A stretch of DNA of 64,000 nt from Aphrocallistes beatrix (Eukaryota; Porifera; Hexactinellida; Sceptrulophora; Aphrocallistidae): NCBI GenBank assembly GCA_963281255.1, contig OY725488.1, positions 9,335,524-9,399,523 on the forward strand, given 5' to 3'. Shown piece after piece: positions 18,644 to 60,146 of this stretch; the first letter of the stretch is position 1; every line of letters begins with the position of its first letter. The notes under the pieces are model-generated. The model was not told the origin of the DNA, did no database searches, and saw only the letters and a list, made by a program, of their open reading frames with translations. The translations under genes and the position numbers were made by a program.

Positions 18644-18730
18644 GACACGAGACACAATCTCTAGCATTATCTAAGTTAGCCACTCTCCTTTCTTACTAGC
18701 AATATATTGAGCTATATTAATAGAATCAGA

Positions 18731-19645
18731 ATGGCAGTTCGATTTCCTGACAGTCAAGCTGTAGACCCCGCAGAGACACACATTATTCATTCCTACGATC
18801 ACCTGATCGCTTGTGTCAATGGAGAACGAACCCCAGGAGAACTATGGTATCCTCATGGTGTCGCACTAGATTCCAACAAAAACCAAATTTATGTCGCTGA
18901 AAGACATTTTTTAGGAGATCCAAGCAACATCGCACGCGTGTCCCTCTTCTCAGAAACAGGAGAGTTCCTAAACATGTTCTCACATCCACTCATGAAGTGG
19001 CCCTGCGGTATAGCTATCCATGGTGACAATGTGTTTGTGACGGACAAGGAAGAACACTCGGTGTTCCATTTCAAAATGGGAGCAGATTTCGATCTCGTTT
19101 CTAGGCTAGGGAGCAGAGGGTCTGGTATTGGACAGTTCGATGTGCCTGGACCACTCGCTGTCTCTACCAACGGAGAAGTTTTTGTCACTGATTGTTACAA
19201 CGATCGAATCCAAATCTTAGTGTTGGATAGCAGACTCCACTACCAGCGACACATAGTGCACCACTCCTTGGTAAAACCATCTGACATTAAACTGACACCA
19301 GACGAAGTGTTTGTTCTCTGCGAAACCTCTCCCTGCATTAAAGTTTTCACAAACTCCGGATTCCTAATACGATCGCTAATTACATCTGGATGTGGTGGAT
19401 TTCAGGTTATTGATCCTTCGTTCTTTTGCTTGGATGCTAGAAGTAATATACTCCTCAGTGATAGTTCGGATCATCAGATTAAAATATTTTCAAAAGAAGG
19501 AACACTCCTCCACACTTTAGGGGAATTTGGTCATGAATTGGGGATGTTCTTTCTTCCACAGGGAATAGTTTTCACTAACAATCTCAAATTTGTTATTGTG
19601 TCTAGGAATAAGAACTATTGTTTGCAAATATTTTCTTTTGACTAG
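18731..19645 (+). CDS. NHL-repeat beta-propeller protein, copy 1
   Basis: An intronless 304-residue protein. The ATG at 18731 (MAVRFPDSQAVDP) is the first in frame. Repeated blades of NHL type are visible: LWYPHGVALDSNKNQIYVAE, MKWPCGIAIHGDNVFVTD, FDVPGPLAVSTNGEVFVTDCYNDRIQI, then PSFFCLDARSNILLSDSSDHQIKIF and LPQGIVFTNNLKFVIVS. That is about six blades covering the whole protein, with no RING, B-box, coiled coil or signal peptide. NHL propellers bind protein or RNA; the partner is unknown. A near-identical paralogue lies at 49627-50541, and a truncated third copy follows at 20115-20240. Confidence 0.85.
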   Translation: MAVRFPDSQAVDPAETHIIHSYDHLIACVNGERTPGELWYPHGVALDSNKNQIYVAERHFLGDPSNIARVSLFSETGEFLNMFSHPLMKWPCGIAIHGDNVFVTDKEEHSVFHFKMGADFDLVSRLGSRGSGIGQFDVPGPLAVSTNGEVFVTDCYNDRIQILVLDSRLHYQRHIVHHSLVKPSDIKLTPDEVFVLCETSPCIKVFTNSGFLIRSLITSGCGGFQVIDPSFFCLDARSNILLSDSSDHQIKIFSKEGTLLHTLGEFGHELGMFFLPQGIVFTNNLKFVIVSRNKNYCLQIFSFD

Positions 19646-26994: not shown

Positions 26995-29900
26995 TTATTT
27001 CTTTTTCTTCGGGATTTCGAAAATGGACCTCCAGTAATCAGAAACGAACACTTGATCAGGATCCATCTGTTCACGAAGCACCAACCACTGCTCCAATTTC
27101 GGGTACGCATTTTTCAGAAAAGCGAGATTGAATGTGACATTATCGAAGGTTTGTCCATTTTCAGGCATCCATTTCCCCCAATGGAATCTCATCCCCTTCA
27201 CTCCCATCAATGCTTCCCAAAAGTACTTATAATAATCGCTTGGAGAGCCGCTGTCATATGCATATCTCAATTTATCAAGGCGAACAACATCCCTGCCGTA
27301 TGACATGCTTAACCAAAACGGAGATGCCTTCGATGCATATACTTCAGTTGTAATACTGCCGCATTTTTTGGGGTCTGTGAATACTTTTTCCTTTAGAGTT
27401 TTGATCAGGTCATTAGCAAATTCAATGGGGAACCACATCTCCATGAAATTCACTTTCAAGAGAGTATCGACTGGTGCTAGATCATCATTAGGCAGTGCGA
27501 TGTACCAGTAATCGCGAAATTTTTCACAAAATGGAATTGGTAGGAATTGTTTAAGAAGAAATGCGATTATTTTTTCTTCACATGGCGTAACTGGACAGCT
27601 CTTTTTAAGTATACAATCGATAAATTTAAGTGCAATGGCTGCTTCTACTGCAGTGATAAGATTCCCGACTTCATGGTGATACGGTATGATATCAGTATTT
27701 TGTGTTTTCTTAGCTCGAAATTGATCAACTCGATCTACTCCCTGTTGTGGCAACCATTGGGCATGATAATACTCCTCCTCCTTTAGAGTGACGGGAAATA
27801 CTTCAGGTCGCAATGTCGAGTCTTGTTCCATTACATTATTTTCTTCCCCTTCAACATTGAAATATGGAACTACCTCAATAGTGACAGAAATCACGATCCC
27901 GAACAACCCCATTGACACCCCGACTGCATAGAATAGGTCGCTCTCTACGGTTGGTGAAACCGTTTTTATTTCCCCTTTCCCATTAATGAATTGAATTTCC
28001 CGAACCGTTTCTGGAAATCCAAATTTAACGCTTCCTCCAGATGACCCAGTTAACATGAACCCTGCAACGGATTGATGGCTAATACCCCCGACAATTGACA
28101 TTGCATATCCAAGTTGTGAAATTTGATAGCTTAGTGAGTTCTCTCTCGTTGAATGAGGATCCATCGGGTTCACTCCAATGTAGCAACCTCCGCCAACCTT
28201 GAATACAGCTTTTCCATGCGGCAACTCTTCAACAAGCGATACAGCTCTTAGATCTCCTGACAAAACCATATCAATTCCTTTCGGTTCGTATATAGAAGCG
28301 CGGACAGAATGCCCAGCACCTCTGCATCGAGCGACTTTACCTTCTTTACGACTCTGCATGACAAGATCAACAACTTGATTAATGTCATCAGGGTAATAGG
28401 CTCCGCAGTGATGCTTTATATGTTTGAGATTTTCAACACTTGGCATTGCTTCTGCTTCTTGAGGCTTTTCTTCCTGAGGGATGATGTCTTCAAGCTTTAG
28501 ATGGGATCCGATGTAATGTACCATTTCTTCTACTTCATGGGTAGCCATTCCTTTTAGATTGTGTAGCTTCGTTCCAATTAATTGCTACAGAAGCAAATCT
28601 TATAATATACAACAAAATAATATATCAAAAGTAAGCGTGTCCAATTTCTGAATTGCTTAAATTGACTTCATATTCTACCCTTTTTCTGAAATTTGAGATT
28701 TTGTTTGTGCCACGACACAGAAGTTTGAATCGAATACAAAAAGAAATAACTTTAAGAGTTCATTCTTTGTAGATATATAGGGTGTCTCAAAAGTTCTGCA
28801 ACAACCAATTTTTCTTTGCTAATTTGACTAAGATCACTTGAATGTATTCCAAATTAGCCTGCATAAATGAAATCTAGCACCCTTCTAGCATAGAAATGAG
28901 CTCAAATCCTTGCGCAAAAAACATTTCTTATAAAATCTTATACTATATTAAAATGCCAGGATTATTTTGTTTGTTTGTCCGAATTGATTGAAAAATTGGC
29001 AAGTCGTAGAGATACGAAAATTGGCATGTAGGTGTCAAATGATGAATCTAGGATTAAGATCTAAGCGAAATGTTCACACTTCGCCGAGATAGGTGACAAA
29101 ATGTGCTGACCAATCAAATTCGATTATTTTATAATGCAAATACATTGGAATAAAATAGTAGTGACTTATGCATACAATCAAAAGAACTATTTGTGATTGA
29201 AATTCATTGTTTTATGTAAGAACCAATCAATTATCAGCCTTTTATAATGCCATTCTCACGATTCTATTTCATATAAATGATTGAATAATGCTATTTTGAG
29301 TCTATAATTTGATTGTTAACAACAATTAAAGTGTGTTATATGCTACGATCAATCAATTCGATCATAAAATAACTTTTAACGACATGGACTGGAATTGATT
29401 ATTTAATTATAATAATCTTTAGCAATGTGAACTTTGTGTATTCAAATTGAACTTACATTCAGGATTAGTTGACTTGATACGAATTAAATTATATTTATCA
29501 CGAAACAAAATTTCTGCTACAGTTCTGATTTCATTAATGTAACCATAGACGTTTTTGTTTGTTTGTTTGTTTGTTCGAAAATCTAAGCGAAATTTTCACA
29601 CCTCTGCAAAAAAATAGAAAACAATTTTCACACCTTTTCTATACAATACTTTGTACGGCTTCGCTCTCACAATAGAAATCATTATACGACACTATTGTAG
29701 GCTGTCATTGTTATTAATACTTCAATGCAATAACTTATATAAATGTCTCAAATATATATTATAGTGTATGGCAGTAAAAAGGTTATTTGTATATTTTCAC
29801 ACCTTTAATACATATTTTTTAAGATTTGACGAATTTTGAAAATTATGCTAGAGACTAACTTCCAACGGTTGACATGGGGTTTTTAGGGGTGTATATTTCG

Positions 29901-32900
29901 AATATCATATTTTCAGATCGATATGCAAATTATTTGTTTACATTTGTTTACAATAGATATATAAAGTAAACAAATTACAAAACTATGCAAGAGACTAGCT
30001 TCCAATGGTTAACATTAGGGGTGTAGAATTCGAATATTATATTTTCAGATCGATATAAGTAATTATTGGTTAACCTTTGTTTACAATATTTATATAAAGG
30101 AAAAAAATCCCAAAATTAGAGCCGCGCAGCGCATGCAAGCGAAGCGCGCTTGTATTAATTAATTACACACCAATTACTCCAAAATTTGGAGCTCAAAAGT
30201 GCTAAGTTTGAAGATCACTATTTGGGTGAAATATTACATCAATCACTTCTATGTATATTCTGTAATTGATTCATAATACTTAAATAATATTGTTACTTTT
30301 GAATTATGTTGCAGTGATCTTCGATAAGAACGAGTATTTTTAAATTATATCCATAAAATGTACCCCTGGGAAATGAAATTTTTTTATTGAGTTAAAAAAT
30401 ATTCTTTACGAGACAATGAAATATATGATCCATCATTGCAAATAAATTGAGAAATACAGGCTATTGGAATGCAAAATAATTAAGATAATCCTCTTTATTT
30501 CTAATTAAAATGAGGTATCGGATGTTGGATCTATTTATCTATGTATGATACATTAGCAAAATTCGTTGCAGAACTTTTGAGACACCCTTTATGTCAATTT
30601 CTAATACGTACAGTAATTTAAAGGGATCCTAAGGAATTACAATTTAATTTTACAGGATAGTACATACGGATGAGCGCAATTACCATCCATGCCTTATGGC
30701 ATCGCCCTATAAAATCAATGAAAATATTTCTAGTATCTAGAAGTTCAAGAATCTATTCTTCAAACTGATACTCAGTATATGAACTATCATCATTTGCATA
30801 CGTACCTTCATGCTTTGTAAAATCTTTGTAGGGTGCAATTCCATTCCCTTTCCTTCGAATTCTTGTAGCAAAAGCTGTGCACTTTTGAAATTTTCACTAA
30901 CCAACTTCTTCAATTCTTCATTTCTATCAGAGAATCCCAGTTCACACAATTTCTCAAAAACCTAAAATATAGATAAGTATTGAGAAAGTATAATTACAAA
31001 CTCGTTACACGAACATCCCTTGATGTTAATCTATATAATCAAACCTTTTTTATTTTGTTTGTTTGTACATATACGTATATTCCTAATTATTCCTATCTCT
31101 GTCCTTATTGATTGAAGGAACGGCCGACCCCAGAAAACTGATTATTGGCATATCGGAGTATTTTGTGAGTAGTTCGAGCAAGTTTGAATCTCATACGAAT
31201 ATGTCAACTCATCATGGAAATGTGACGTCATTGTACAATTTTCTTGAAATATCAATTCTAGTTTTAGATCATAACTGCCATTAAATATAATGATGGTTGA
31301 AATTTGAAACACCTGTGTATAACAACATCCTACACAAGATATTATCATTACATATCGAAACAGATGAGTCTTCATTAAATTATCATACCATCGTTATGCA
31401 ACAAAATAGAAAATGAAATTATTTGCCAATGATTCCAAGAACTCTAAGTGATACAAATTTCAAAATCGACACACAGACCAGTACTACTAATTATTTCCAT
31501 GAAAATTTGAAAATACTTACTAGTCATTAATGATGTTTTCATTGTTACCATTTAATTATTCTGAATTTTGCATATGCATTCCTATTTTAGGCAATACAAG
31601 TAATAATAGGTCCCTCATTGGGCGCCTATTATTACTCGGACGAAGCGGGTCGGAGAGTTGACACGAAGTGTTCACTATCCACGCAGCGCAAGCGTGCGTA
31701 GTGTGATTGTCCCTCTCGAAAATAGCATTTTGTTTGTATCATCAACATATTCATTTGTTTTGTTACATTCTATTTACAGAATGCAGGTCTATTATGTATC
31801 CGTAAGCTGTGCAACACATAAAAGAGAAGTGCAGTTTAATAACATACCTTTTCGGCTGTATTCAACCCTGGCAGTAGTTTTATCACTTTCTTCCCTGCTC
31901 TAAATGAAATATTAATGAATAGCATAACCCGAGTTTAATTTTTATGAAACATAAACCACTTTTGCTCGATTGAACGGAAGTTTTGTAAATTGACATTATT
32001 ATGCTACAAAAGTATAACTTTTCATGGCTCGAACTAAACAATTTTGGAAAAAATGATAGCATTTACATTTTCTCAAATTTGCTTATAATTAATTCTAACC
32101 TTTCTAAGACTTTGAATAATTCTTTGAGCAGATGAAGGCACAGTGCTTCTATTTCTTGTAGGAATGTCTTGTCCTTCGTAATATTATTTTCTGGGTCTTT
32201 AAAAGGTATTTTCGCTCGGTTCATAATTTCTTTGGCAGCATTCCACCCCGATTGAATCGCTCCGTCCATGTACCCTGACCAATCGGATGCTGTCTCAGTT
32301 CCGGCGAAAAATATTTTCTCATCATCAATTGGTGTACATATTGCTTGGCAAAATGTAGTTGTAGTGCCAGGCCCTGCAACCCCTCCCGTTCCCCCTATGT
32401 ATGACACATCCAACCAGTCGTAATCTGAAAACTTGGTGAACATAGGAATTGGTTTTCCGCCGCCAAGAATATTTGTATACTCTTTTTGGAGAGCTTTTTC
32501 TTTATCTTCTTTACTAAGTGTTTGCCATTCCCTCGCCTTGTCAGCAAGCACGAATCCCATTAGGCAAGGTGTTACAGTTTGCTGTGAAATGTCGAATGTT
32601 TGACCAACATAATTATCACTTCCAGTGATCGTCGCGATCCCGTTAAGTCCGTTTTGATCATTCCACCACCTCTTTTCATAATACATGAACGTCTTCAGTA
32701 TCGAACCCATTGGCATTCGTTGGGCATATTGCATGTAAACCCCGTTGTACTTGATATTCTTATATTGTATCTGATTCCGAACAGTTGGAGTTGTAGCGAC
32801 AATTGCGTAATCCCCACAGGTAGTTTCATTCGATTGTTGTGTGAAAGAGACTTGATTATTGTCAGCTTTGGAAATCGTCAAAATTGGACTGCTAGTTTGG

Positions 32901-33589
32901 ACTTTGTTAGCTTTATTTGCAGTTATAATTGCCTTAAGTTTCTCACTTAACTGTTGTGCTCCGCCGTCAAACACTGCATCCTGGGCATCCGTCAAAATGT
33001 CAATGATACCATGACCCGATTTAATGTACCAAAGGAAGTAGAGTAAGGACATTTCCCAAGGTTCCACTCCGACTAGTACTTCAACTATCATGCGAAACAA
33101 TTCGCTTCCAACCTCGGTGACTATTAAACTATCAAAGTAGTTCTGTACCGTCATTTTGTCCCATTCTGATGCATGTTTTGATTTCCAAGGTTCAAGTAAA
33201 TCTATTTGTTTAGTTTTGCACATTATATCCAGCATTCCCCAAACCAATGCCAAAAAATCTTCTAGCCCAAGTGCTCCAAAAGGGAGTGCCAACTTGCTTT
33301 GATATATCTTGTTATCGATAAAGAACGTATACAAACCCTCTTTATCCAATTTAATCTGCTTAACGCCCAATTCATTTGCTAAGTAAATCGTACGCTTTTT
33401 CTTTGGTCCAATGAACGCGCCTCCCATATCCACCCCGTTAATGGCATAAGTTCTGCCGCCAACTCTGTCTAACGCCTCATACACCTCTACATTTACCCCG
33501 CTTTGAGTAAGTAGATGAGCAGCACATAAGCCTGCTAAACCAGCTCCCACAATCAACACTTTAACTTGTTGGGCATCCTTGGCTGCCAT
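26995..33589 (-). CDS. predicted four-exon fusion: amine oxidase + aldonolactone-oxidase-type flavoenzyme
   Basis: Exons on the minus strand: 33589-32067, 31899-31848, 30961-30806, 28584-26995 (3321 nt, 1106 residues). Exon 1 is a monoamine-oxidase-family FAD enzyme: dinucleotide fold VLIVGAGLAGLCAAHLL (about residues 10-26), VGGRTY, and the C-terminal FAD motif FFAGTETASDWSGYMDGAIQSG (about 427-448). Exons 2 and 3 encode a charged helical linker (AGKKVIKLLPGLNTAEK; VFEKLCELGFSDRNEEL). Exon 4 is a PCMH/VAO-fold oxidase: CRGAGHS, with the His used for covalent FAD in this family at about residue 669, and the aldonolactone-oxidase C-terminal signature FHWGKW near 1045. All donors are GT (GTAAAT, GTATGT, GTACGT) and all acceptors AG. 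Phases agree: phase 2 for the first intron, 0 for the others. Without splicing, exon 1 would stop three codons later (508 residues) and exon 4 could start at an internal ATG (28548), so two separate genes or isoforms remain possible. No signal peptide is seen. Confidence 0.7.
28779..30588. mobile_element. Tc1/mariner-like element in intron 3 of the fusion gene
   Basis: The ends AGGGTGTCTCAAAAGTTC (28779) and GAACTTTTGAGACACCCT (to 30588) are inverted and match the element at 23355-24407, whose interior also aligns (for example ATAAAATGTACC near 30350 with ATAGAATGTACC near 24235). A Helitron-like repeat (28945-30160) has inserted inside it. No usable transposase frame remains. Confidence 0.75.
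28945..30160 (+). mobile_element. composite Helitron-like repeat element, second copy
   Basis: Starts near ATTAAAATGCCAGG with TTTTGTTTGTTTGTCCGAA, followed by GTAGAGATACGAAAATTGGC, also found inverted at 15275-15300. Two units of the 141-bp-type repeat are at about 29840-30110. It ends in a GC-rich hairpin-forming stretch (GCGCAGCGCATGCAAGCG, 30122-30150) and TTAATTAATT. A second GTTTGTTTGTTTG block and the AATTTTCACACC motif repeat inside, near 29555-29640, suggesting an internal duplication or nested copy. Confidence 0.5.
31030..31705 (+). repeat. possible third Helitron-like fragment in intron 2
   Basis: A TTTTGTTTGTTTGTACATA block at about 31052 is followed about 600 bases later by a GC-rich self-complementary stretch (ACGCAGCGCAAGCGTGCGT, 31681-31699). 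This is the same start/end pattern as 28945-30160, but without the minisatellite units. The whole lies in the second intron of the fusion gene. Boundaries are approximate. Confidence 0.35.
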
Positions 33590-35899: not shown

Positions 35900-35948
35900 A
35901 TGTGATTGATTTTCACTTATTGATATTAGTTTGCATTTGGATCGAGTA

Positions 35949-37214
35949 ATGGCCACGCGTCTACCAGCAGAATCATTGCTGGGAGAGGAGAGGGTGGAGA
36001 TAGAGTTGGAGGAGTTGAGGAGTCAGGTGCAGAGAGAGAAAGAGAAAGTGAGAAAATATTTCCATCAGCTCCACCTGCTGCTAGCAGCTAGAGAGGAAAG
36101 TGTGTTGAGAGAGCTAGATGAGATTGTAGATCGAGTGAGAGCAGAGTTGACAGAGAAGAGAGCTCTCCTCCAACAGCTGAACACAGCTCGAGAGGGTCTG
36201 GAGAGAGATCTGACACAGAACAAGTTGAGAGAACTGCTTCAGAAGAATGTGCGTAGTCTGGAAGATGGTGTGGGAGAAGTGTTGGGTAGAGGAGTGAGAG
36301 TTGGGTGGTTAGAGGTGGAGTGGAATGTGGAGGGAGTAGAAGTGTCAGTGAGTGATGTGTGTAAGGTTGTGTGTCTGAAGGCGAAACCTGTGCAACGTGT
36401 GGACTATTCTGTGAAAGTACGTCCTGTCTGGTCTCGTGTCACTAGAGGGGGAGGTCCTGATCAGATTTCATATCCAAACCAGATAACTATTGACAATACA
36501 ACACAGAATATATTTGTAGCAGATATGTACTGTCCTAGAATTCAAGTGTTTAATTCAGAAGGTTACCATCTCTACACGACTACTGATGGGATAGTAGGAG
36601 GATCTAATGGAATAGCTCTAACCAATGAATTCCTTTTCGTGATAAATGATAAAAATTTGTTGAAACTGAACAAATCATCAAACAAATTAGTTGAGTCAGT
36701 GGAAACAGAGAATCCTATTTGCGGAATTGAAGTTGATGAACAGATAAACATTTATGGATGTGAGTATTACTACCAATCAATAGTTGTATTTGACATGAAT
36801 CTGAAATTTCTGAGAAGAATCAAACTGAAATCATCTCATTTACAATCAAATACTGAAACTCACTGTATGAAACTCTATCAGAACAACATGTATGTAATGT
36901 TTGGTCCCTGTCCTACTTTCCATCTCCAGATATTTTCTCTAGAAGGAGATCTGATAAGATGTTTGATACCCAAAGAAGAGATTGGATGGAGTTATTTCTT
37001 TACAATCGATCAAGTGGGGAATATCATAGTAGCTGATTGGTTAGGTAGTCAAATCAAGATATTCAGCAATGAAGGAGATACAATACACACCATTACCAAT
37101 GAAGACTTAGCTGAGAATGAAAGATTCTACTGTCCTACTAGATTAATACTAGATAATTCAAATAGGATTATTGTAGCACAGTTGAATTCTGAGAGTTGTC
37201 TACAAGCTTTCTGA
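35949..37214 (+). CDS. coiled-coil/NHL beta-propeller protein, family member 1
   Basis: An intronless 421-residue protein starting MATRLPAESLLGEERVEIEL. Residues about 10-115 are rich in Glu, Leu, Arg and Gln with heptad spacing (VQREKEKVRKYFHQLHLLLA; LLQQLNTAREGLERDL), a coiled coil like that after the B-box in TRIM proteins. RING and B-box are absent. Residues about 150-421 form an NHL propeller with blades such as SYPNQITIDNTTQNIFVAD, NGIALTNEFLFVI, FFTIDQVGNIIVADWLGSQIKIF and PTRLILDNSNRIIVAQ, ending in CLQAF. It is likely a cytosolic scaffold. Members 2-4 of the same family lie at 38123, 53918 and 63221. A poly(A) signal AATAAA lies at about 37280. Confidence 0.88.
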   Translation: MATRLPAESLLGEERVEIELEELRSQVQREKEKVRKYFHQLHLLLAAREESVLRELDEIVDRVRAELTEKRALLQQLNTAREGLERDLTQNKLRELLQKNVRSLEDGVGEVLGRGVRVGWLEVEWNVEGVEVSVSDVCKVVCLKAKPVQRVDYSVKVRPVWSRVTRGGGPDQISYPNQITIDNTTQNIFVADMYCPRIQVFNSEGYHLYTTTDGIVGGSNGIALTNEFLFVINDKNLLKLNKSSNKLVESVETENPICGIEVDEQINIYGCEYYYQSIVVFDMNLKFLRRIKLKSSHLQSNTETHCMKLYQNNMYVMFGPCPTFHLQIFSLEGDLIRCLIPKEEIGWSYFFTIDQVGNIIVADWLGSQIKIFSNEGDTIHTITNEDLAENERFYCPTRLILDNSNRIIVAQLNSESCLQAF

Positions 37215-38588: not shown

Positions 38589-39644
38589 ATGGCTTCTGCA
38601 CTAATTTTATTTGAGATTGAAATTGAAATTATTGAAAACAGTTTACGTCGCCAAAGAGTTTTTAGGGATCGACTTAACCCAATGGAGGCATATTCTGACT
38701 TCGATTTTATCGCTAGATACAGAATAACGAAGTATATGTTTGTAAACCTCTTGAACAACATTTCCATCAAACTTCATCGATCTACTGCTCGTTCCCACTC
38801 AATCGCTCCAGCAACACAACTAGCTGTAGCTCTGCAGTTCTTAGCTACTGGAACTTTTCAGACAGTTATCGCATCCGCACATGGAATCTCGCAAACGTCT
38901 GTATCGAGATGCGTAACTGCTGTGACTAAAGCATTAACCAGCATAGCTCCAGCATATATCAAATTTCCGAATACAACTCGACAAAGGGTCATTCAAGAAT
39001 ATTTCTTAAAGAAATACAAGTTCCCACTAGTTCTTGGATGTATTGATGGCTCCCATGTTCCCATCCTTGCGCCATCAACGAATGAGGATCTCTATGTTAA
39101 CCGAAAGGGATTTCACTCTATAAACATCCAAGCAATTTGTGACCATGAATTTCGCTTCATCAATGCTGTTGTCAAATGGCCCGGCTGCACTCATGATGCT
39201 TTTATTTGGCGTCAATCAGGCATCAACCGGGAGATAACAAGTGGTGGGATTGAAACTGTCCATGGGTGGCTCTTAGGTGATAGTGCGTATGGATTACGTA
39301 CTAAGTTAATGACTCCTATAACTTCTCCAGCTACACCTGGGCAAAGAAGGTATAATCGGGCTTTCCTTAAAGTTCGTCAAACAATTGAGTGCACTTTCGG
39401 TATTTGGAAGAGCCGTTGGAGGTCCATGGATAGAACAGGAGGGACTCTCTGTTATAGTCCTGAAAAATGCTGTAAAATAATCATCGCTACTATGGTGCTG
39501 CATAACATGTGTATCGACCATGGCCTCCTGACCGAACTCGAAGCAACAATGGATGAACCCACTCCTGACATTGATTATCTGCAGGAACCTTCAGAAAATG
39601 GTATCATAATGGGGGAAGCTATAGTAACTGAATTTTTCCAGTAA
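38589..39644 (+). CDS. Harbinger DDE transposase
   Basis: A 351-residue protein of the DDE_Tnp_4/HARBI1 family. It starts MASALILFEIEIEIIENS. A helix-turn-helix-like region lies at about residues 60-130 (LAVALQFLATGTFQTVIASAHGISQTSVSRC). The catalytic residues appear in VLGCIDGSHVPI (first Asp), HGWLLGDSAYGL (second Asp) and RQTIECTFGIWKSRW (Glu). The length is usual for the family and no stop or frameshift is seen. It acts with the SANT protein encoded divergently at 39939-40754, which in characterised Harbinger systems binds the ends and helps nuclear import. Confidence 0.93.
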   Translation: MASALILFEIEIEIIENSLRRQRVFRDRLNPMEAYSDFDFIARYRITKYMFVNLLNNISIKLHRSTARSHSIAPATQLAVALQFLATGTFQTVIASAHGISQTSVSRCVTAVTKALTSIAPAYIKFPNTTRQRVIQEYFLKKYKFPLVLGCIDGSHVPILAPSTNEDLYVNRKGFHSINIQAICDHEFRFINAVVKWPGCTHDAFIWRQSGINREITSGGIETVHGWLLGDSAYGLRTKLMTPITSPATPGQRRYNRAFLKVRQTIECTFGIWKSRWRSMDRTGGTLCYSPEKCCKIIIATMVLHNMCIDHGLLTELEATMDEPTPDIDYLQEPSENGIIMGEAIVTEFFQ

Positions 39645-41165: not shown

Positions 41166-42485
41166 CAGTTTAATACCACAGATAGAACTGACAAAACACT
41201 CCTAGCGCGGCAATGATTCATACAACAGAAATAAAAACTGCCTACAAGCTTTTATATTAATTTATAGACCGACGAAACACGATTTACAAAATAATTTAAG
41301 AGTTAAATCAACCCCAGACATGACTTAAGTTTAAAACTAAATATTTGCTTAAGTTTAAGCAAATACTTAGTTTTTGCTTAAAGTTAAGCAAATACTTAGT
41401 TTTTGCTTAAGTTTAGCTTAGTGAATACCAACTTAAGCAAAACTTAAGTTTAACTTAAGTTTTGCTTAACTTTAAGCAAATACTTAAGTTTTGCTTAAGT
41501 TTTGCTTAAGTTTAAGCAAATACTTAGTTTTTGCTTAAAGTTAAGCAAAACTTAAGTTAAGAAGTTTAGTGAATAAGGGCCGTGCACGCCTCTATCAGCA
41601 GAATCATTGCTGGGAGAGGAGAGGGTGGGGAGAGAATTGGAGGAATTGAGGAGTCATGTACAGAGAGAGAAAGAGAAAGTGAGAAGTTATTTCCATCAGC
41701 TCCACCTGCTGCTAGCAGCTAGAGAGGAAAGTGTGTTACGAGATCTAGATGAAATTGTAGATCTAGTGAGAGCAGAGTTGACAGAGAAGAGAACTCTCCT
41801 TCAACAACTGAACACAGCTCGAGAGGATCTGGAGAGAGATCTGACAGAGAACAAGTTGAGAGAACTGCTTCAGAAGAATGTGCGTAGTCTGGAAGATGGT
41901 ATTGGAGAAGTGTTTGGAGAAGAAGGATTGACAGTTGGGTGGGTAGAGGTGGAGTGGAACGTGCAGGGAGTAGAAGTGTCAGTTTATGATTTGTGTATGG
42001 TTGTGTATCTGAATGAGAAACCTGTGCAACGTGTGGACTATTCTGTGAAAGTACGTCCTGTCTGGTCTCGTGGTCCTGAAGGAGAAGGAACTGATCGGAT
42101 TTCAACCCCAAGTCAGATAGCTATTGACAACACAACACATAATATTTTTGTGGCAGATAGCACATGTCCTGGGATTCAAGTGTTCAATTCGGATGGAAAC
42201 CATATCTACTCTATTACCGATGGGATAGGAGGAGGATCTACTGCTATTGCTCTAACCAAAGAATTCTTTTTCGTGAAGAGTGGACCCAATTTACTTAAAT
42301 TTAACAAATCTTCTAACACCGTAATTGAATCAGTGAAAACAGTGAATTTTAGATTTGGAATTGATGTGGATGAACTGATGAATATTTATGGATGTATTCA
42401 AGGCAATCAATCAATAGTTGTATTTGACATGGATCTGAAATTCCTGAGAAGAATCGACCTGAAATCATCTCATTTACAATCAAAT

Positions 42486-42645
42486 ATAATGTGGATCTAT
42501 AATCTATAGTTTTAATATCAATCAACAATGCAACCAATAATTACTACGATATATATATCATCAATTCTCAAATAATCTCCAGTAATCCTATCTACTTAAT
42601 AGTTAACTTTGGTTACTTAACAAGTTCTGAATTAACATTATTATA
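42486..42645 (-). repeat. gypsy 3' LTR
   Basis: The 160-bp repeat at the 3' end of the minus-strand element, identical by eye to the other LTR. A purine-rich tract (GAGGAAGGAGATA on the minus strand, about 42646-42660) lies immediately upstream, as expected for the plus-strand primer. Confidence 0.93.
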
Positions 42646-42682: not shown

Positions 42683-44389
42683 TTAATCTACAACATAATC
42701 TCCTAAGTATTTAGGTAACCTCCGAACACGTTGCGAACGGCGCACAGGGCTCTTCAATGGTGTGGACAATCCTCTGTTGAGTGAGTCGTTCCATTTCCCT
42801 GGGCTACTAATAATCTGATTCGGGGATTCCATAGAAAAGCTAGTATCTTCCCCCATACTATGAGACGAAATTTCAAATTCTCTGGAACTATCGACTGAAT
42901 TGTCCAGGACTTCTTCTATGCTCCCTTCGTATTCTCTTCCTTCCAAGGTGTTTTCATAACTTCCCTCAGTTACCCTGGGAATGCTTCCCCTGCTAACTTC
43001 TGGTGTGCACCTACTTGAATCTCGTACAGGAATTCTACCTATCACCCTTTCACTTCTCTCGAATGGTTCACTGGTCAATTTGTTATTTGAATCATCTAGC
43101 TGATCATGTACTATAGCCCTGCCTAGTAATCCATCGGACCGCAAATTACGATGCTGTAAGCGATTAATGTGAACTACGCGAGTTGAGCCGTCCCTATTTT
43201 GAATTTTTGCTGATACTGGACTCTTCATCTCTACAATTTCCCATCCACCCTCCCACTTGCTATCTAGTTTCCTAGATACCCCTCCATGAGGTATTGATAG
43301 CCAAACCGGATCTCCCCTTGTAAAAACAGTCAGCCTTGACAGGGAGTCGTAATATTTCTTCTGGCGTTTTTGGGCTTCGATTATGTTACCTTCTACGAAT
43401 CCACGAAGTTCTGCCAACTTTTTACGCAGAAACAATTCATATGAACTAGGATTATGCTCTGCAGGTTTTTCATGATGTATCACGTTAGGGGGATCTCGCC
43501 CATACATTAGTTCAAATGGTGTTATACCAGTTGAAGAATGTTTAGTCGTTCTGTAAGCGTAGAGCACTAATGGAAGAAATTCCTCCCACTCATGACTTTT
43601 ATCCACATAGCATCTTAACATCTGGAGAACTGTACGGTTCCCGCGCTCTACTAGAGCGTTCCCTTGTGGATGATATGCGGTGGTACGTGTTTTTTGGATT
43701 CCAAGTGTTTTACACGTTTCTTTTAGTAGCGAAGATTCAAAATTCCGGCCTTGGTCAGAATGCAGAAACTCTGGTGTTCCTAATCTGGCAAAGACCTCAA
43801 CCAACAAGTTAGTAATAGTTTCCGCCTTTTGGTCCTTCATAGGAAAACATTCTATCCATTTTGAAAATGCATCTTCTGCCACCAATAGGTATCTATTCCC
43901 TTTACTGCTGAGAGGAACTTCGAGTACATCAACCTGAAACAATTGCATCGTACGACCTATCGGTGTGTTTTGAAGTGGTGCTCTAGTAGGAAGAGGAAGC
44001 TTTGCCTTCTGACAAACTTCGCATGATGCAACATAATTTACTACATCTGATGCCATATTAACCCAATAACCAACTAATTTCAATCGACTCAATGTTCTCT
44101 CCATTCCTTGGTGCCCAGCTTCATCGTGAACTTGACTTAGTATCTCTCTTTTCATGGTGTCTGGAATGACAGTCACAGTGCTGGTATCGGAAAATGGTTC
44201 GATCTTGTAGCTGCGAACCAAAACACCGTTCATTAACTGTAATTGATGCTGAATTTGCTTGTACCTTTTAAACTCAGGCTGGTCCCATTCTAACCCAGAG
44301 AACCGTTTAGGTAACGGAACAATTTCAATTTCCTTCATTATTCTCGAAATGTTTTGATCTCGTAATTGTTCTGCCTGAACACGGGACAT
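42683..44389 (-). CDS. gypsy pol, integrase part
   Basis: The 568-codon frame includes the integrase zinc domain (HDEAGHQGMERTLSR ... CEVCQ) and the DDE core: VDVLEVP (first Asp), FLHSDQGRNFES (second Asp) and GNALVERGNRTV (Glu). After these comes a chromodomain-less C-terminal segment with GDPVWLSIP and VVHINRLQ. The apparent Met start is inside the polyprotein, because the RNase H frame upstream leads into this frame after a one-base shift near 44565. The last about 130 residues are Ser/Glu-rich. It inserts the cDNA into the host genome. Confidence 0.9.
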   Translation of the reverse strand: MSRVQAEQLRDQNISRIMKEIEIVPLPKRFSGLEWDQPEFKRYKQIQHQLQLMNGVLVRSYKIEPFSDTSTVTVIPDTMKREILSQVHDEAGHQGMERTLSRLKLVGYWVNMASDVVNYVASCEVCQKAKLPLPTRAPLQNTPIGRTMQLFQVDVLEVPLSSKGNRYLLVAEDAFSKWIECFPMKDQKAETITNLLVEVFARLGTPEFLHSDQGRNFESSLLKETCKTLGIQKTRTTAYHPQGNALVERGNRTVLQMLRCYVDKSHEWEEFLPLVLYAYRTTKHSSTGITPFELMYGRDPPNVIHHEKPAEHNPSSYELFLRKKLAELRGFVEGNIIEAQKRQKKYYDSLSRLTVFTRGDPVWLSIPHGGVSRKLDSKWEGGWEIVEMKSPVSAKIQNRDGSTRVVHINRLQHRNLRSDGLLGRAIVHDQLDDSNNKLTSEPFERSERVIGRIPVRDSSRCTPEVSRGSIPRVTEGSYENTLEGREYEGSIEEVLDNSVDSSREFEISSHSMGEDTSFSMESPNQIISSPGKWNDSLNRGLSTPLKSPVRRSQRVRRLPKYLGDYVVD

Positions 44390-44484
44390 AGATGGTATTC
44401 TAGTTAATTCAGTTACTGCCGTATGCTTCCAACTATTAATCTGGAAATTTGTTTCTCTGTTGCCGTTATCTGCTTGTATAGACT

Positions 44485-46563
44485 CTACAGGTTCGCCATC
44501 AATCGAAAGTATTCTTGACAGTGCGTCTGCATTATTGTTTTCCTTGCCTTGACGATATTTACTATAAAATCATATTCCTGTAGAATTACTGCCCACCTCC
44601 ATAGACGACCAATACTTTTTTGGTTAGCAAGCCACTCGAGTGGCTTGTGATCTGTAAGAATCTGAAACCTCCTCCCTAGCAAGTAATGTCGAAATCGTTT
44701 CAATGCTTCGACAATAGCAAGACATTCTTGCTCGACGACACTATAATTCTTTTCAGCACTCTTTAAAGAACGCGAATAATAAGCAACAGCATGTCCATTC
44801 TGCTCCAGTACTGCACCTAAACCTAGAGAACTTGCATCGGTGCACAGTGTAAATGGGCAGGTGAAATTCGGACAAACTAAAACAGGTCCTGAAGAGAGCT
44901 TGTTTTTAAGATCCAAAAATGCACTTTCTGTGTTTTTAGTCCATTCAAAATTTACTTCTTTTCTTAATAAATCATTCAATGGATTTGAAATTGAAGCGAA
45001 ATTATTTATGTATCTTCTATAATACCCTGCCAACCCCAAAAATTGTTTGAGTTCTTTTTGATTAGAAGGTCGTGGCCACTGAACAATAGACTCGATCTTA
45101 GACTGATCAGGAGACATTCCAGAACTTGAAAACGTGTGTCCGAGGTAATTAATCTTTCTCCTCCCTATCTCACACTTCTTTCCACGAAGAGTTAATTTCT
45201 TTATTCTGAGTCTTTGAAAAACATCTTGCAATATTTTCCGATGAGAGAATGCGTCCGGCGAAAAGATTAATATATCATCAATGAAATTGTCAGTATTTCG
45301 TTCGAGTCCATGCATGACTTGGTCCATGATGCGTTTACAGGCACTGGGCCCCCCCGTAAGTCCGAATGGGAGGACGTTAAATTCAAAGAGTCCCATACCA
45401 GGTCCCACTGAAAAAGCTGTTTTCTCACGGTCATCTTCTGATACCGGAATTTGCCAGTAACCCGAATTCAAATCCAACTTAGTAAAGTAACGCATACCAT
45501 TTAATTTATCTTGCACTTGATCGGGTAATGGTAGCGGGTAAGCATCTTTCTGTGTGATTTTATTAAGGTTTCGATAATCAATACAAAAGCGTATACCGCC
45601 ATCCTTCTTTCCGACAATCACTGGTGGTGAAAGGTAAGGGCTACTGGATATCCGTATAATATTTCGATCCAACATATCATTTATTTGTTTACCTACTTCT
45701 GATCTGTACGCTTGTGGAATCATTCTTGGAGGTGTTCTTACAGGAATGTTATTTGATGTATGAATTCGGAACTCCTCGACTTTAGCAATACTCGGAATTG
45801 AATTAAATAAGTCTCGAAACGTCTCCAAAATATCCGTAAATTCTTCACTACATACTGGTAATTCATATTTTGGATCATTTCCATATTTCGGAACAGCACA
45901 ACGACACTCCCAATCGTCTTCCACGTCTGCACTATCTACGATGGTAGAAACAGAGAAAAACTCAGATATTCCTTCTATATGGACAGGACATAGACTGTTA
46001 CTAGCTGTCTTTGGTTGTTTTTCAGCATGCAAATTACCTATAATCGGTCCCACCACCATTCGGTCCGCAAAGTTAAGATGTATTTCGTGACGAACCAAGA
46101 AATCAACCCCCAGGATACAGTCTGTGATTAAGGATGAAACAACGATGAATTTCTGCGTAGTTTGGAGACCACCTATATATATTTCTAATTCTGCTTCAGA
46201 GATAGTTTCCATCAAATTTCCAGATGCCATAGCCAAGGATTGCTTCGTAGGATAGGAATTAACAGACCGCATTTTCCTGAAACTATTTATTGATAGTAAA
46301 CTTACAGTGGAACCACTATCCATCATAGTATAACAATTGATTCCCCCAATTCTAGTCACAATGTGAAGAGACTCCATATCCTTGCATAGAGCTACATAAT
46401 CGTCGGAACTTGAAGTAAATTGAATTTCAGATCGAGCCATGTTTAATATTTCTGGGACCTCATCTCGGCTCTTCCGATAGGCCCCTTCTCGTTTAAAGTC
46501 TGCCCTATTGCTGATTCCGTACAGTTTCGCATTATGTGCCCCAAACGACCGCAATGGTAACAT
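44485..46563 (-). CDS. gypsy pol, protease-reverse transcriptase-RNase H part
   Basis: Motifs in order on the minus strand: protease YTMMDSGSTVSLLS near residue 80; reverse transcriptase PYLSPPVIVGKKDGGIRFCIDYR and the catalytic FIDDILIF; RNase H CTDASSLGLGAVL, EQECLAIVEAL and LTDHKPLEWL. The frame goes out of register after QEYDFIV and ends at 44485. A one-base indel near 44565 is the simplest cause and the only lesion I see in pol. The start overlaps gag by about 120 bases in another frame, so natural expression would need ribosomal frameshifting. Slippery sites were not determined. Confidence 0.9.
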   Translation of the reverse strand: MLPLRSFGAHNAKLYGISNRADFKREGAYRKSRDEVPEILNMARSEIQFTSSSDDYVALCKDMESLHIVTRIGGINCYTMMDSGSTVSLLSINSFRKMRSVNSYPTKQSLAMASGNLMETISEAELEIYIGGLQTTQKFIVVSSLITDCILGVDFLVRHEIHLNFADRMVVGPIIGNLHAEKQPKTASNSLCPVHIEGISEFFSVSTIVDSADVEDDWECRCAVPKYGNDPKYELPVCSEEFTDILETFRDLFNSIPSIAKVEEFRIHTSNNIPVRTPPRMIPQAYRSEVGKQINDMLDRNIIRISSSPYLSPPVIVGKKDGGIRFCIDYRNLNKITQKDAYPLPLPDQVQDKLNGMRYFTKLDLNSGYWQIPVSEDDREKTAFSVGPGMGLFEFNVLPFGLTGGPSACKRIMDQVMHGLERNTDNFIDDILIFSPDAFSHRKILQDVFQRLRIKKLTLRGKKCEIGRRKINYLGHTFSSSGMSPDQSKIESIVQWPRPSNQKELKQFLGLAGYYRRYINNFASISNPLNDLLRKEVNFEWTKNTESAFLDLKNKLSSGPVLVCPNFTCPFTLCTDASSLGLGAVLEQNGHAVAYYSRSLKSAEKNYSVVEQECLAIVEALKRFRHYLLGRRFQILTDHKPLEWLANQKSIGRLWRWAVILQEYDFIVNIVKARKTIMQTHCQEYFRLMANL

Positions 46564-47375
46564 CGAATTTTAGGTTTTCTTCTACTGGGACATTCTTCTG
46601 CGTAATGTCCTTCACCCTGGCATTCGTAACAAATTAATTTCCGCTGTTTCCCATCATAAGACCGACGACTTCCAAATCCTCGCCTTGTAGCACAAGTATA
46701 ATAATCTCTCTCCTTAATTTTGGACGACTTAAACTGTGCTGTGATCATGCTTACTGCCTCTTCAATAGCAGCATCTTTCGATATAGTACCACTACCCTCA
46801 TCCCTAGCTTGAACAACCCTGTGTGCTTCTTCCTTCATCTGTACGGACGCTACCAGCTCTGGTTGACTCTCTGGAATTTCGTTGTGCATTCGAATCAATA
46901 CCTGAGCTCTTTTTAAAGCATCCTGGCAAGTCTTTATATCCGGGGATATACGGATATTTTCATACACGGCTTTCGGAAGGCCTCGGATAAACTGTTCAAA
47001 AATCAATTGCTCTTTGGCCTGATCATCCATCTCTGGAAATGCTTTATTAAGCAAACGTTTCAATTGAAAAAGATACCTCTGTGGCGTCTCATTAGGAAAC
47101 ATAGATCTCTGATGGAATTCACTCAGAGCAGTGAATCTCTGATCCTCCGCTTTGAAAGCATTTTGAAGCGTCTCCTTTACTATTCCATAATCTTTCCTCC
47201 CCTCAGTATTCACAGTCTTGTATACCTCGAGTGCTTCTCCTTTCAAACAAGTAGCTATCATCAGTGCTTTTTTCTCCGTCTCCCAACCATTCGCAAGGGC
47301 ACAAATTTCGAAATGCTCAATGAATTCGTCAACATCGCCTCCCTCAAATTTGTCTACTTGTACTGGATTCGCCAT
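46443..47375 (-). CDS. gypsy gag with two zinc knuckles
   Basis: A 310-residue protein. The N-terminal two-thirds is a retrotransposon gag/capsid fold (FEGGDVDEFIEHFEICALANGW; LKGEALEVYKTV; FIRGLPKAVYENI). The C-terminus has two CCHC knuckles, CYECQGEGHYAEEC and CYHCGRLGHIMRNC, for RNA binding. It starts 29 bases after the primer-binding region and is intact. Confidence 0.92.
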   Translation of the reverse strand: MANPVQVDKFEGGDVDEFIEHFEICALANGWETEKKALMIATCLKGEALEVYKTVNTEGRKDYGIVKETLQNAFKAEDQRFTALSEFHQRSMFPNETPQRYLFQLKRLLNKAFPEMDDQAKEQLIFEQFIRGLPKAVYENIRISPDIKTCQDALKRAQVLIRMHNEIPESQPELVASVQMKEEAHRVVQARDEGSGTISKDAAIEEAVSMITAQFKSSKIKERDYYTCATRRGFGSRRSYDGKQRKLICYECQGEGHYAEECPSRRKPKIRCYHCGRLGHIMRNCTESAIGQTLNEKGPIGRAEMRSQKY

Positions 47376-49538: not shown

Positions 49539-49626
49539 GACACGATACACAATCTCTAGCATTTATCTAAGCTAGCTACTATCCTTTCTTATTAACAATA
49601 GATTGAGCTATATTTATAGAATCAGA

Positions 49627-50541
49627 ATGGCAGTTCGATTTCCTGACACTCAAGCTGTAGACCCCGCAGAGACACACATTAATCATTCCTACGATCACCT
49701 GATCGCTTGTGTCAATGGAGAACGAACCCCAGGAGAACTATGGTATCCTCATGGTGTCGCACTAGATTCCAACAAAAACCAAATTTATGTCGCTGAAAGA
49801 CATTTTTTAGGAGATCCAAGCAACATCGCACGCGTGTCCCTCTTCTCAGAAACGGGAGAGTTCATAAACATGTTCTCACATCCACTCATGAAGTGGCCCT
49901 GCGGTATAGCTATCCATGGTGACAATGTGTTTGTGACGGACAAGGAAGAACACTCGGTATTCCATTTTAAAATGGGAGCAGATTTCCATCTCGTTTCTAG
50001 GCTAGGGAGCAGAGGGTCTGATATTGGACAGTTCGATGTGCCTGGACCACTCGCTGTCTCTACCAACGGAGAAGTCTTTGTCACTGATTGTTACAACGAT
50101 CGAATCCAAATCTTAATGTTTGATAGCAAACTCCACTACCAGCGACACATAGTGCACCGCTCCTTGGTGAAACCATCTGACATTAAACTGACACCAGACG
50201 AAGTCTTTGTTCTCTGCGAAACCTCTCCCTGCATTAAAGTTTTCACAAACTCCGGATTCCTAATACGATCGCTAATTACATCTGGATGTGATGGATTTCA
50301 TGTTATTGATCCTTCGTTCTTTTGCCTGGATGCTAGAAGTAATATACTCCTCAGTGATTGTTCGGATCATCAGATAAAAATATTTTCAAAAGAAGGAACA
50401 CTCCTCCACACTTTAGGGGAATTTGGTCATGAATTGGGGATGTTCTTTCTTCCACAGGGAATAGTTTTCACTAACAATCTGAAATTAGTTATTGTGTCTA
50501 GGAATAAGAACTATTGTTTGCAAATATTTTCTTTTGATTAG
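49627..50541 (+). CDS. NHL-repeat beta-propeller protein, copy 2
   Basis: A 304-residue paralogue of the 18731 gene, with about 15 amino-acid differences by eye (for example DTQ for DSQ, FHLVS for FDLVS, CDGFHVI for CGGFQVI). All six blades and the termini are conserved. It is intronless, with an intact frame and AATAAA at about 50574. Its 3' flank to about 51060 also matches that of copy 1. It lies between the two aldo-keto-reductase exons on the same strand, so it is either nested in that intron or placed there by duplication. The base differences are mostly conservative, suggesting both copies are under constraint. Confidence 0.88.
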   Translation: MAVRFPDTQAVDPAETHINHSYDHLIACVNGERTPGELWYPHGVALDSNKNQIYVAERHFLGDPSNIARVSLFSETGEFINMFSHPLMKWPCGIAIHGDNVFVTDKEEHSVFHFKMGADFHLVSRLGSRGSDIGQFDVPGPLAVSTNGEVFVTDCYNDRIQILMFDSKLHYQRHIVHRSLVKPSDIKLTPDEVFVLCETSPCIKVFTNSGFLIRSLITSGCDGFHVIDPSFFCLDARSNILLSDCSDHQIKIFSKEGTLLHTLGEFGHELGMFFLPQGIVFTNNLKLVIVSRNKNYCLQIFSFD

Positions 50542-53845: not shown

Positions 53846-53917
53846 TTGTATGTTCAAACTGATTGATCTGTTCAGTTATCTTTTCTTATTGTTATTAGTT
53901 CATATTTGTATCAAGTA

Positions 53918-55186
53918 ATGGCCACGCGTCTGTCAGCAGAATCATTGCTGGGAGAGGAGAGGGTGGAGAGAGAGTTGGAGGAGTTGAGGAGTCAGGTTCA
54001 GAGAGAGAAAGAGAAAGTGAAAAGCTATTTCCATCAGCTCCACCTGCTGCTAGCAGCTAGAGAGGAAAGTGTGTTGAGACAACTAGATGAGATTGTAGAT
54101 CGAGTGAGAGCAGAGTTAACTGAGAAGATAGCTCTCCTCCAACAACTGAACACAGCTCGAGATGATCTGGAGAGAGATCTGACAGAGAACAAGTTGAGAG
54201 AGCTGCTTCAGAAACATATGCGTAGTCTGGAAGATGAAATGGGAGAAGTGTTAGGGGCAGAAGGAGTGACAGTTGGGTGGGTAGAGGTGGAGTGGAATGT
54301 GGAGGGAGTAGAAGTGTCAGTGAGTGATGTGTGTAAGGTTGTGTGTCTGAAAGAGAAACCTGTGCAACGTGTGGACTATTCTGTGAAAGTACGTCCTGTC
54401 TGGTCTCGTGCTGCTGGAGGGAAATGTCCTGATCAGATTTCGAGTCCAATGCAGATAGCAATTGACAATACAACACAGAATATATTTGTGACAGATCTGG
54501 ACAGTCCAAGAATCCAAGTGTTCGATTCAGAAGGAAACCATCTCTACTCCATTACTGATGAGATAGTCAGAGGATCTACTGGAATAGCTCTAACCAATGA
54601 ATTCCTTTTCGTAACAAGTGGAGGCAATTTAGTGGAATTTAACAAAACTTCTAACCACTTAATTGAGTCAGTGGAAACGGAGAATCGTATTTTGGGAATT
54701 GAGGTTGATAAACAGACAAACATTTATGGATGTGAACTTTACAACCAATCAATAGTTGTATTTGACATGAATCTGAAATTCCTGAGAAGAATCAAACTGA
54801 AATCATCTCATTTACAATCAAATACTCGAACTCACAGTATGAAACTCTATCAGAACAACATGTATGTAATGTTTGGTGACTGTCCTACTTTCCATCTCCA
54901 GATATTTTCTCTAGAAGGAGATCTGATAAGATGTTTGATACCAAAAGAAGAGATTGGATGGAGTTATTTCTTTACTATCGATCAAGTGGGGAATATCATT
55001 GTAGCTGATTGGTGGGGTAATCAAATCAAGATATTCAGCAATGAAGGAGAGACAACACACACCATTACCAATGAAGACTTAACTGAGAATGAAAAATTCT
55101 ACTTTCCTCATGGAATAGTACTAGATAATTCGAATAGGATTATTGTAGTACAGCAAAATCCTGAGAGTTGTCTACAAGCTTTCTGA
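53918..55186 (+). CDS. coiled-coil/NHL beta-propeller protein, family member 3
   Basis: An intronless 422-residue protein, collinear with member 1. It has an N-terminal coiled coil (residues about 10-120; VQREKEKVKSYFHQLHLLLA), a linker with VGWVEVEWNVEGVEVSVSDV, and an NHL propeller from about residue 165 (SPMQIAIDNTTQNIFVTD; TGIALTNEFLFVT; FFTIDQVGNIIVADWWGNQIKIF; PHGIVLDNSNRIIVV). Differences from member 1 concentrate in the propeller loops (for example FVTDLDSPR versus FVADMYCPR), while the coiled coil is nearly constant, as if the propeller surface is diversifying. It lies between the two aldo-keto-reductase exons on the same strand. Confidence 0.88.
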   Translation: MATRLSAESLLGEERVERELEELRSQVQREKEKVKSYFHQLHLLLAAREESVLRQLDEIVDRVRAELTEKIALLQQLNTARDDLERDLTENKLRELLQKHMRSLEDEMGEVLGAEGVTVGWVEVEWNVEGVEVSVSDVCKVVCLKEKPVQRVDYSVKVRPVWSRAAGGKCPDQISSPMQIAIDNTTQNIFVTDLDSPRIQVFDSEGNHLYSITDEIVRGSTGIALTNEFLFVTSGGNLVEFNKTSNHLIESVETENRILGIEVDKQTNIYGCELYNQSIVVFDMNLKFLRRIKLKSSHLQSNTRTHSMKLYQNNMYVMFGDCPTFHLQIFSLEGDLIRCLIPKEEIGWSYFFTIDQVGNIIVADWWGNQIKIFSNEGETTHTITNEDLTENEKFYFPHGIVLDNSNRIIVVQQNPESCLQAF

Positions 55187-58812: not shown

Positions 58813-60146
58813 CTAGGTCGTTCAATAAGTCTTGCGGGTCATGGTATATTTCGCAAACTATAATAGTAAACAAATCAGTTTTTATCTCTAAGACAACCTT
58901 ATATCTTAGCTTGATTTACTGAAAATCTTAGCTTGATTGAATGAAAATTACAAATTTCTGATCAATTTATTCACACATCATTTCAACATACTGGTAAAAT
59001 TATGGCTTCCAAGGATGACAATTTTAATCTGAAACGGAGAGCTTACATTGAGTTTCGCACAAAACTCCGCATCCAGCCGGTACTCATCTGCAACTAGTTG
59101 CAGGAGGTATTGTGCATGGACTGCCCTTCCAGATCAACGGTCGAGCGATGGGCTGCACGATTTCAGTCTGGAAATACAAACGTGTCAGATCTACCTCGAT
59201 CTGGGAGACCGGTGTCCGTCAGCACCCCAGAGAATGTTGCTCTAATCGAGAGCAAAGTCAGGGAAGATAAGTGTATAACAATCGAGCAGTTAGAGCAGGG
59301 TATGGAGATTTCATCGGGGGTCATTCATTCCATTCTGACTACTCAGCTTGGTTTCCGATCCATTTGCGGTAAGTGGGTCCCAAATAACCTCGGCGATCAA
59401 CAAAAGCTCGCACGTGTAAATACTGCCAAGAAACTCCTGGAAACCTATGACGGTTGTGATCCTAGACGCCTAGCTGAAGTTATAACCGGGGATGAGACTT
59501 GGGTATATTATTCAACCCCTTACAGCAAGTATAAAATGCGATCATGGGTGAGAGGCGACGAAAGACCGGCCCAAATTCCTAGGCCCGACTTCAGAAAACC
59601 GAAGGTCATGTACACGATCTTCTTCAATAGTAGTGGAATAGTCTTGCAAATACCTTCTGAAAGTGGTAAAACAGTAAACGCAACGTTTTTTACAGAGAAA
59701 GTACTTCCAAACCTAATAAAAAACGTGGAAGAGCTCCGTCCCAGGCTAAAATGAGGGACATAAAATTATTGATAGATAATGCTAGCTCCCATACAACCAA
59801 GCTCACTAAAAATTTCTTGGAATCAGAGGGGTTAGATTTACTTCCCCACCCACCCTACTCACCAGACCTAGCTCCCTGTGATTTTTGGCTATTCCCAAAG
59901 CTCAAAATCTACCTTCAAAGCAGGGAATTTTAGTCGAAACAAACCCTCGGGTCGGCCCTGTACCACTTCTTCAAATCCACCCCCGAAGAAGAGTACAGAA
60001 ATGCATTCATAAAGTGAGTGGAAAGATCGAAACGCTGTGTAGAAGTAGGAGGGGGGTATTTCGAATAAATAATACATTGAGACATATTCTATGACATTTA
60101 TTTATGATTTTATGGTATGACCCGCAAGACTTTTTGAATGCCCTAG
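58813..60146 (+). mobile_element. mariner transposon (1334 bp), degenerate
   Basis: Inverted ends CTAGGTCGTTCAATAAGTC (58813) and the complement of CTAGGGCATTCAAAAAGTC (to 60146), continuing with TTGCGGGTCAT. TA is on both sides (58811-58812, 60147-60148). The length is standard for mariner. The transposase inside is broken. Confidence 0.92.
59002..60064 (+). pseudogene. mariner transposase pseudogene
   Basis: The frame starts MASKDDNFNLKRRAYIEF at 59002 and is interrupted by TAG near 59095. It runs open from 59098 to 59754 with the helix-turn-helix region (STVERWAARFQSGNTNVSD; RSGRPVSV) and VITGDETWVYY (first Asp). A stop and frameshift near 59752 are followed by LLIDNASSH (second Asp) and SPDLAPCDFWLFP (third Asp). 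The spacing is exactly 34 residues, the DD34D signature of mariners. More stops follow before the natural C-terminal region (STPEEEYRNAFIK). At least three lesions make it inactive. Confidence 0.9.

Follow-up and report, generated by a model that had tools for sequence, protein, structure and literature searches.

A glass-sponge locus predicted to encode an MAO-like and an aldonolactone-oxidase-like flavin domain in one protein

Enzymes of the MAO family and of the VAO/PCMH family both make hydrogen peroxide but have unrelated folds. MAO-A and MAO-B proper end in a C-terminal mitochondrial outer membrane anchor; for their active site we assume the usual roles of a Lys near flavin N5 and of a Cys as the 8-alpha-S-cysteinyl FAD site, and the usual definition of the two-tyrosine aromatic cage. 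On the VAO/PCMH side, GULO, ALO and GalDH have a catalytic arginine (Arg388 in GalDH), and the alditol and xylitol oxidases (2vfr, 8ot8) a Glu-x-Arg (E-x-R) site. The roles of the covalent-FAD His and of the oxidase-enabling Gly follow the available part of one report (PMC11099136), and ALO active-site residue roles were also taken from the available part of another (PMC11505616). No description of two flavin oxidases of unrelated fold on one chain was found among the titles and abstracts listed by searches of the open-licence literature (for one of them, 10 of 495 papers), and the locus described here holds known domains in an unreported arrangement.

The window, that is, the whole stretch of 64,000 nt of Aphrocallistes beatrix DNA analyzed here, belongs to an assembly of 100.5 Mb in 28 contigs. 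On its minus strand an amine-oxidase open reading frame (33589-32063, 508 codons) is followed in tandem by an ALO-type frame (28548-26995, 517 codons), exactly as an earlier sequence-only reading had placed them. We put at about 0.8 the probability that both are parts of one four-exon gene, which would be transcribed and spliced to yield one protein chain about 1095 residues long, in which an N-terminal MAO-fold domain is connected through a linker of some 80 residues to a VAO/PCMH-fold domain at the C terminus. Exon 1 in its corrected form (32100..33589, minus strand, like all features of the gene) carries the MAO-like flavin amine oxidase domain and specifies residues 1-496 and two bases of codon 497. 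It is followed by intron 1 (31900..32099, 200 nt, GT-AG), exon 2 (31848..31899, residues 497-514), where the linker starts, intron 2 (30962..31847, 886 nt, GT-AG) and exon 3 (30806..30961, residues 515-566), which forms a charged linker segment. Beyond intron 3 (28585..30805, 2221 nt), exon 4 (26995..28584, residues 567-1095) contains a 12-residue leader and the aldonolactone/alditol-oxidase-like flavin domain. The AG/GT borders of both small exons, the phases 2, 0 and 0 and the acceptor 36 nt upstream of the ATG of the second frame were confirmed.

GC content is higher in the exons (0.414, 0.442, 0.353 and 0.415 for exons 1 to 4) than in the introns (0.26, 0.326 and 0.292 for introns 1 to 3). 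By codon score, exon 3 (15.6 bits) outranks every one of the 2795 overlapping windows taken from introns 2 and 3, among which the 48 free of stops reach 9.95 at most; the comparison somewhat favors exon 3, as these introns also served to train the background, and exons 1 and 4 contributed to the codon table. Intron 3 contains an inverted-repeat element (28772-30595) with arms of 31 nt that are 94% complementary. Its ends have 40 scored genome matches each, self included (among 316 and 319 candidates), and since in two copies elsewhere in the genome the ends are about 600 nt apart, the copy in intron 3 seems to contain an additional insert of some 1.2 kb.

The fusion is supported by a protein of another glass sponge. 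A search with residues 500-1106 of the joined protein as initially drawn, in which 7995 candidates of about 608-1935 aa sharing most words with the query were scored, gave three matches at E <= 1e-3. The best of them, LOD99_13999 of Oopsacas minuta (P0001, 1106 aa), carries both domains and the linker; the other two have no listed amine-oxidase domain. P0001 is named in its record only as hypothetical protein / Amine oxidase. End-to-end alignment gave 324 identities over 458 aligned residues for the MAO half and 353 over 480 for the ALO half, with 15 additional residues close to the N terminus of P0001. With both domains and the linker in common and nearly equal length, it is the likely ortholog. 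The O. minuta gene models were obtained with Braker/Augustus and mapped RNA-seq reads, according to the available part of the genome report (PMC10280926). The P0001 sequence is a gene prediction in its own right.

The exon structure was recovered from this protein by spliced alignment. A stretch of 160 P0001 residues across the linker was aligned with the window DNA by a protein-to-genome dynamic program that allowed only GT/AG introns, with the ends anchored by hand within the MAO and ALO frames. All three intron penalties used gave an exon ending at 32100, then 31899-31848 and 30961-30806 and an exon from 28584 onward, with zero gaps, so that exons 2-4 of the sequence-only reading returned unchanged. 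At the middle penalty the score was 330, compared with a mean of 262.4 (sd 7.7, maximum 284) for 150 shuffles of the linker. The shuffles gave the whole exon set in 0/150 cases, exact exon 2 in 3/150, exon 3 in 7/150 and the start of exon 4 in 64/150. Identity to Oopsacas is 7/18 in exon 2, 12/52 in exon 3 (26/52 positive, gapless) and 6/12 in the leader preceding the ATG.

The end of exon 1 is the point at which the initial gene model had to be changed. The donor GTAAAT proposed for it is present, but it overlaps the stop codon rather than lying three codons ahead of it, and would make 32067 the last exon base. A second donor, AAG/GTTAGA, is located 33 nt upstream, likewise in phase 2, and sets the exon end at 32100. 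By eye it looks weaker than GTAAAT; we moved the donor because the linker is then gapless relative to Oopsacas. Most likely, exon 1 ends at 32100, which would give a protein of 1095 residues, 11 fewer than the 1106 first proposed; the joined frame is free of stops, as claimed.

Both catalytic domains are recognizable in the joined protein by domain search. The match to PF01593 (E 1.1e-53, profile positions 1-443 of 443) shows that the MAO domain is complete, and the closest solved structure by sequence is MAO-A, 1o5w (E 1.5e-74). The Lys near flavin N5 is kept in 120 of 121 aligned rows, including all seven rows that we call glass-type, a label that for those beyond Oopsacas marks a presumed glass-sponge origin. 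At the covalent-FAD site, where 89 of the 120 rows with a letter have Cys, all seven glass-type rows have Thr, and seven other relatives checked (P0117-P0123) all have Ser. Because Thr replaces the covalent Cys, the FAD of this half is probably held non-covalently. The two-tyrosine cage is incomplete: the Tyr of SGYMDG is kept, and 7/7 glass-type rows have Gly directly behind the Cys site. Where MAO-A/B proper have their membrane anchor, the domain here leads into the linker and a further enzyme domain.

The ALO half matches PF04030 (E 7.9e-16, 59 bits at a cut-off of 23.1) and, by profile, 2vfr (E 4.8e-15). The HWGK motif and the covalent-FAD His, both noticed before, were upheld by row alignment: H, W and K are each present in 107/107 rows with a letter, the His in 103/105 and the oxygen-gate Gly in 95/106, the latter two in 7/7 glass-type rows. 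The conserved His suggests that FAD is bound covalently in this half. The Glu of the Glu-x-Arg site is invariant (107/107), whereas the place assigned to Arg388 is occupied by Tyr in 106/107 rows, an assignment based on the Glu-x-Arg spacing and a C-terminal 2vfr match of only 10.2 bits. The domain differs in this residue from GULO, ALO and GalDH, and its TIGR01678 score (129.1 bits) is below the cut-off of 396.8; from the alditol and xylitol oxidases it differs in having E-x-Y for E-x-R, with about 20% identity in structural alignments. The rows P0004-P0110, nearly all with E-x-Y, thus expose an ALO-like subfamily of both animals, corals among them, and bacteria, of which we met no characterized member.

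The model of P0001 agrees with this division, predicting an MAO fold and an alditol-oxidase/GalDH-type fold with a low-confidence linker between them. Among the 50 Foldseek matches listed for the model, all are MAO-fold flavin oxidases by title; for the ALO half, matches were found in the VIA-align list. The pLDDT is below 50 in the linker (511-608) and also at 405-436 of the MAO half, a stretch with the former Cys loop. With a pTM of 0.59, the mutual orientation of the halves is not fixed by the model.

The linker, about 80 residues long, is fast-evolving. In exon 3, no Pfam family reached its threshold (the best scored 12.9 bits where 27 is required and 15.1 where 27.9 is), and none of the PDB sequences matched better than E 0.99; a second copy of the linker in the A. 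beatrix genome was not found at better than E 2.5. A UBA-like fold, suggested for exon 3 by eye, was dropped, there being no Pfam or PDB match and a modeled pLDDT below 50. We also considered, and rejected, the idea that the linker descends from the tail found at the C terminus in other MAO relatives: in 12 comparisons (six tails with two linkers, the P0123 tail left out) shuffles reached the observed score in 12 to 494 of 500 cases, and the best pair, P0119 with the window (12/500), is a weak hint at best. Two MAO relatives outside the glass-type clade, P0117 and P0119, terminate in VSER followed by a stop, in a position resembling the end of glass-sponge exon 1. The intron position at this end is perhaps older than the fusion.

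Protein searches revealed four further ALO/MAO pairs, and the contigs of the two members are in each case equally long: 291502 for P0005/P0116, 86197 for P0006/P0113, 573107 for P0007/P0112 and 809918 for P0009/P0115. We infer that each pair shares one contig; two of the four pairs may come from one species. The P0113 frame reads through intron 1 into an exon-2-like stretch, which is identical to Oopsacas exon 2 at 14 of 18 positions (0/2000 shuffles) and to that of the window at 6 of 18 (5/2000 shuffles), and the frames of P0114 and P0116 end at the corrected end of exon 1. All seven glass-type rows fall into a single clade both in the ALO tree (106 rows, support 100 by a quick method) and in the MAO tree (76 rows, 100/100). 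In the latter, their sister (96/85) is a group of ten rows that includes P0118 (549 aa, Em0006g215a), presumably from Ephydatia muelleri. The fusion is present in at least Oopsacas and A. beatrix and probably in the species behind the four further contigs, and its recurrence across species suggests selection for holding the two activities together.

Outside these loci the halves occur as apparently separate proteins, namely P0118 for the MAO half and the coral proteins P0017, P0063 and P0067 for the ALO half; apparently single-domain ALO relatives come from corals (Pocillopora, Stylophora, Oculina) and Coxiellaceae. The searches that gave these relatives admitted proteins only to about 900 aa and so excluded fusions. 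The A. beatrix genome has at least four other ALO-domain and at least ten other amine-oxidase places, and those found do not adjoin each other. At five bacterial loci of ALO relatives, two of them short (L018 and L019), no MAO relative was found at E 0.01 (best E 0.39), with the ALO control positive in 5/5. Two of the five contain two ALO relatives side by side (L019:3495-6468 and L021:10001-13644).

Three alternatives to a single fused product were considered. In the glass sponge Aphrocallistes vastus, a trans-spliced leader of about 37 nt has been reported, carried by some 4% of the long reads (PMC10282587). The first alternative keeps the fusion as the main product and adds separate MAO or ALO proteins made by alternative ends or trans-splicing. 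Such a mixture would be compatible with the leader of A. vastus, the in-frame ATG at 28548 and the second possible exon-1 donor at the stop, but the start Met is not conserved, and we regard the mixture as unlikely. In the main rival, a spliced-leader operon, one pre-mRNA would be resolved into an MAO mRNA and an ALO mRNA, with the acceptor at 28585 as the trans-splice site, and two enzymes would be made. The A. vastus leader requires that this arrangement be considered, the distance between acceptor and ATG, 36 nt, is short, and some relatives (P0006, P0007, P0009) have a Met at the start of the leader. However, the window has no such upstream Met, and Ile stands in P0009 where the window has its ATG, so that neither candidate start is kept throughout and no separate ALO start codon is conserved throughout. 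Moreover, the leader residues encoded ahead of the ATG are conserved, and an operon leaves without a role exons 2 and 3, which are coding-like and gapless relative to Oopsacas. The operon is therefore disfavored, to a slightly greater degree than the mixture. Finally, gene finders commonly err by merging neighboring genes and relatives of each half do exist alone, but a mistaken merger of two adjacent independent genes, both in the Oopsacas prediction and in the sequence-only reading, is highly improbable given the exons recovered by spliced alignment and by none of the shuffles, the exon 2 carried at the P0113 locus and the four further contig pairs.

Our preferred reading is thus a fused gene. 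The sequence-only claim that MAO and VAO/PCMH oxidases are joined in one protein is well supported by the fused ortholog, the conserved linker, the recurrent pairs and both predicted folds, and had to be amended in its donor and length. From the residues retained, it is reasonable to expect, and in our view probable, that the product is a bifunctional enzyme with two FADs that produces H2O2: each half would bind its own FAD and oxidize a substrate, passing the electrons to O2. The two halves appear to be intact oxidases whose specificity has changed. Activity on classical substrates is doubtful because of the Tyr at the E-x-R site and the Thr at the Cys site. A possible substrate is a polyhydroxylated or acylated amine, which would be oxidized first to an aldehyde and in a second step to an acid. 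The earlier suggestion of a channeled amine-to-aldehyde-to-acid reaction is speculative and rather doubtful, because the model does not define how the halves are oriented and each half departs at a key residue. Equally tentative is a two-step dual oxidase specific to glass sponges, in which the MAO half makes the aldehyde and the tethered E-x-Y ALO half oxidizes its hydrate to the acid; if true, it would release two H2O2 and ammonia per turnover and might serve peroxide signaling, defense or matrix cross-linking. The arrangement raises a testable question, namely whether the halves share an intermediate or double a source of peroxide.

Elsewhere in the window, several similar NHL/TRIM-like frames occur at 18707-19645, 35931-37214, 41607-42509, 49603-50541 and 53906-55186; the one scanned gave NHL at E 0.00098, just below the cut-off. 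Adjoining frames at 42683-47375 are retroelement-like by eye, a DDE_Tnp_4 transposase frame is located at 38589-39644, and a partial mariner-like transposase frame (PF01359) at 59098-59754.
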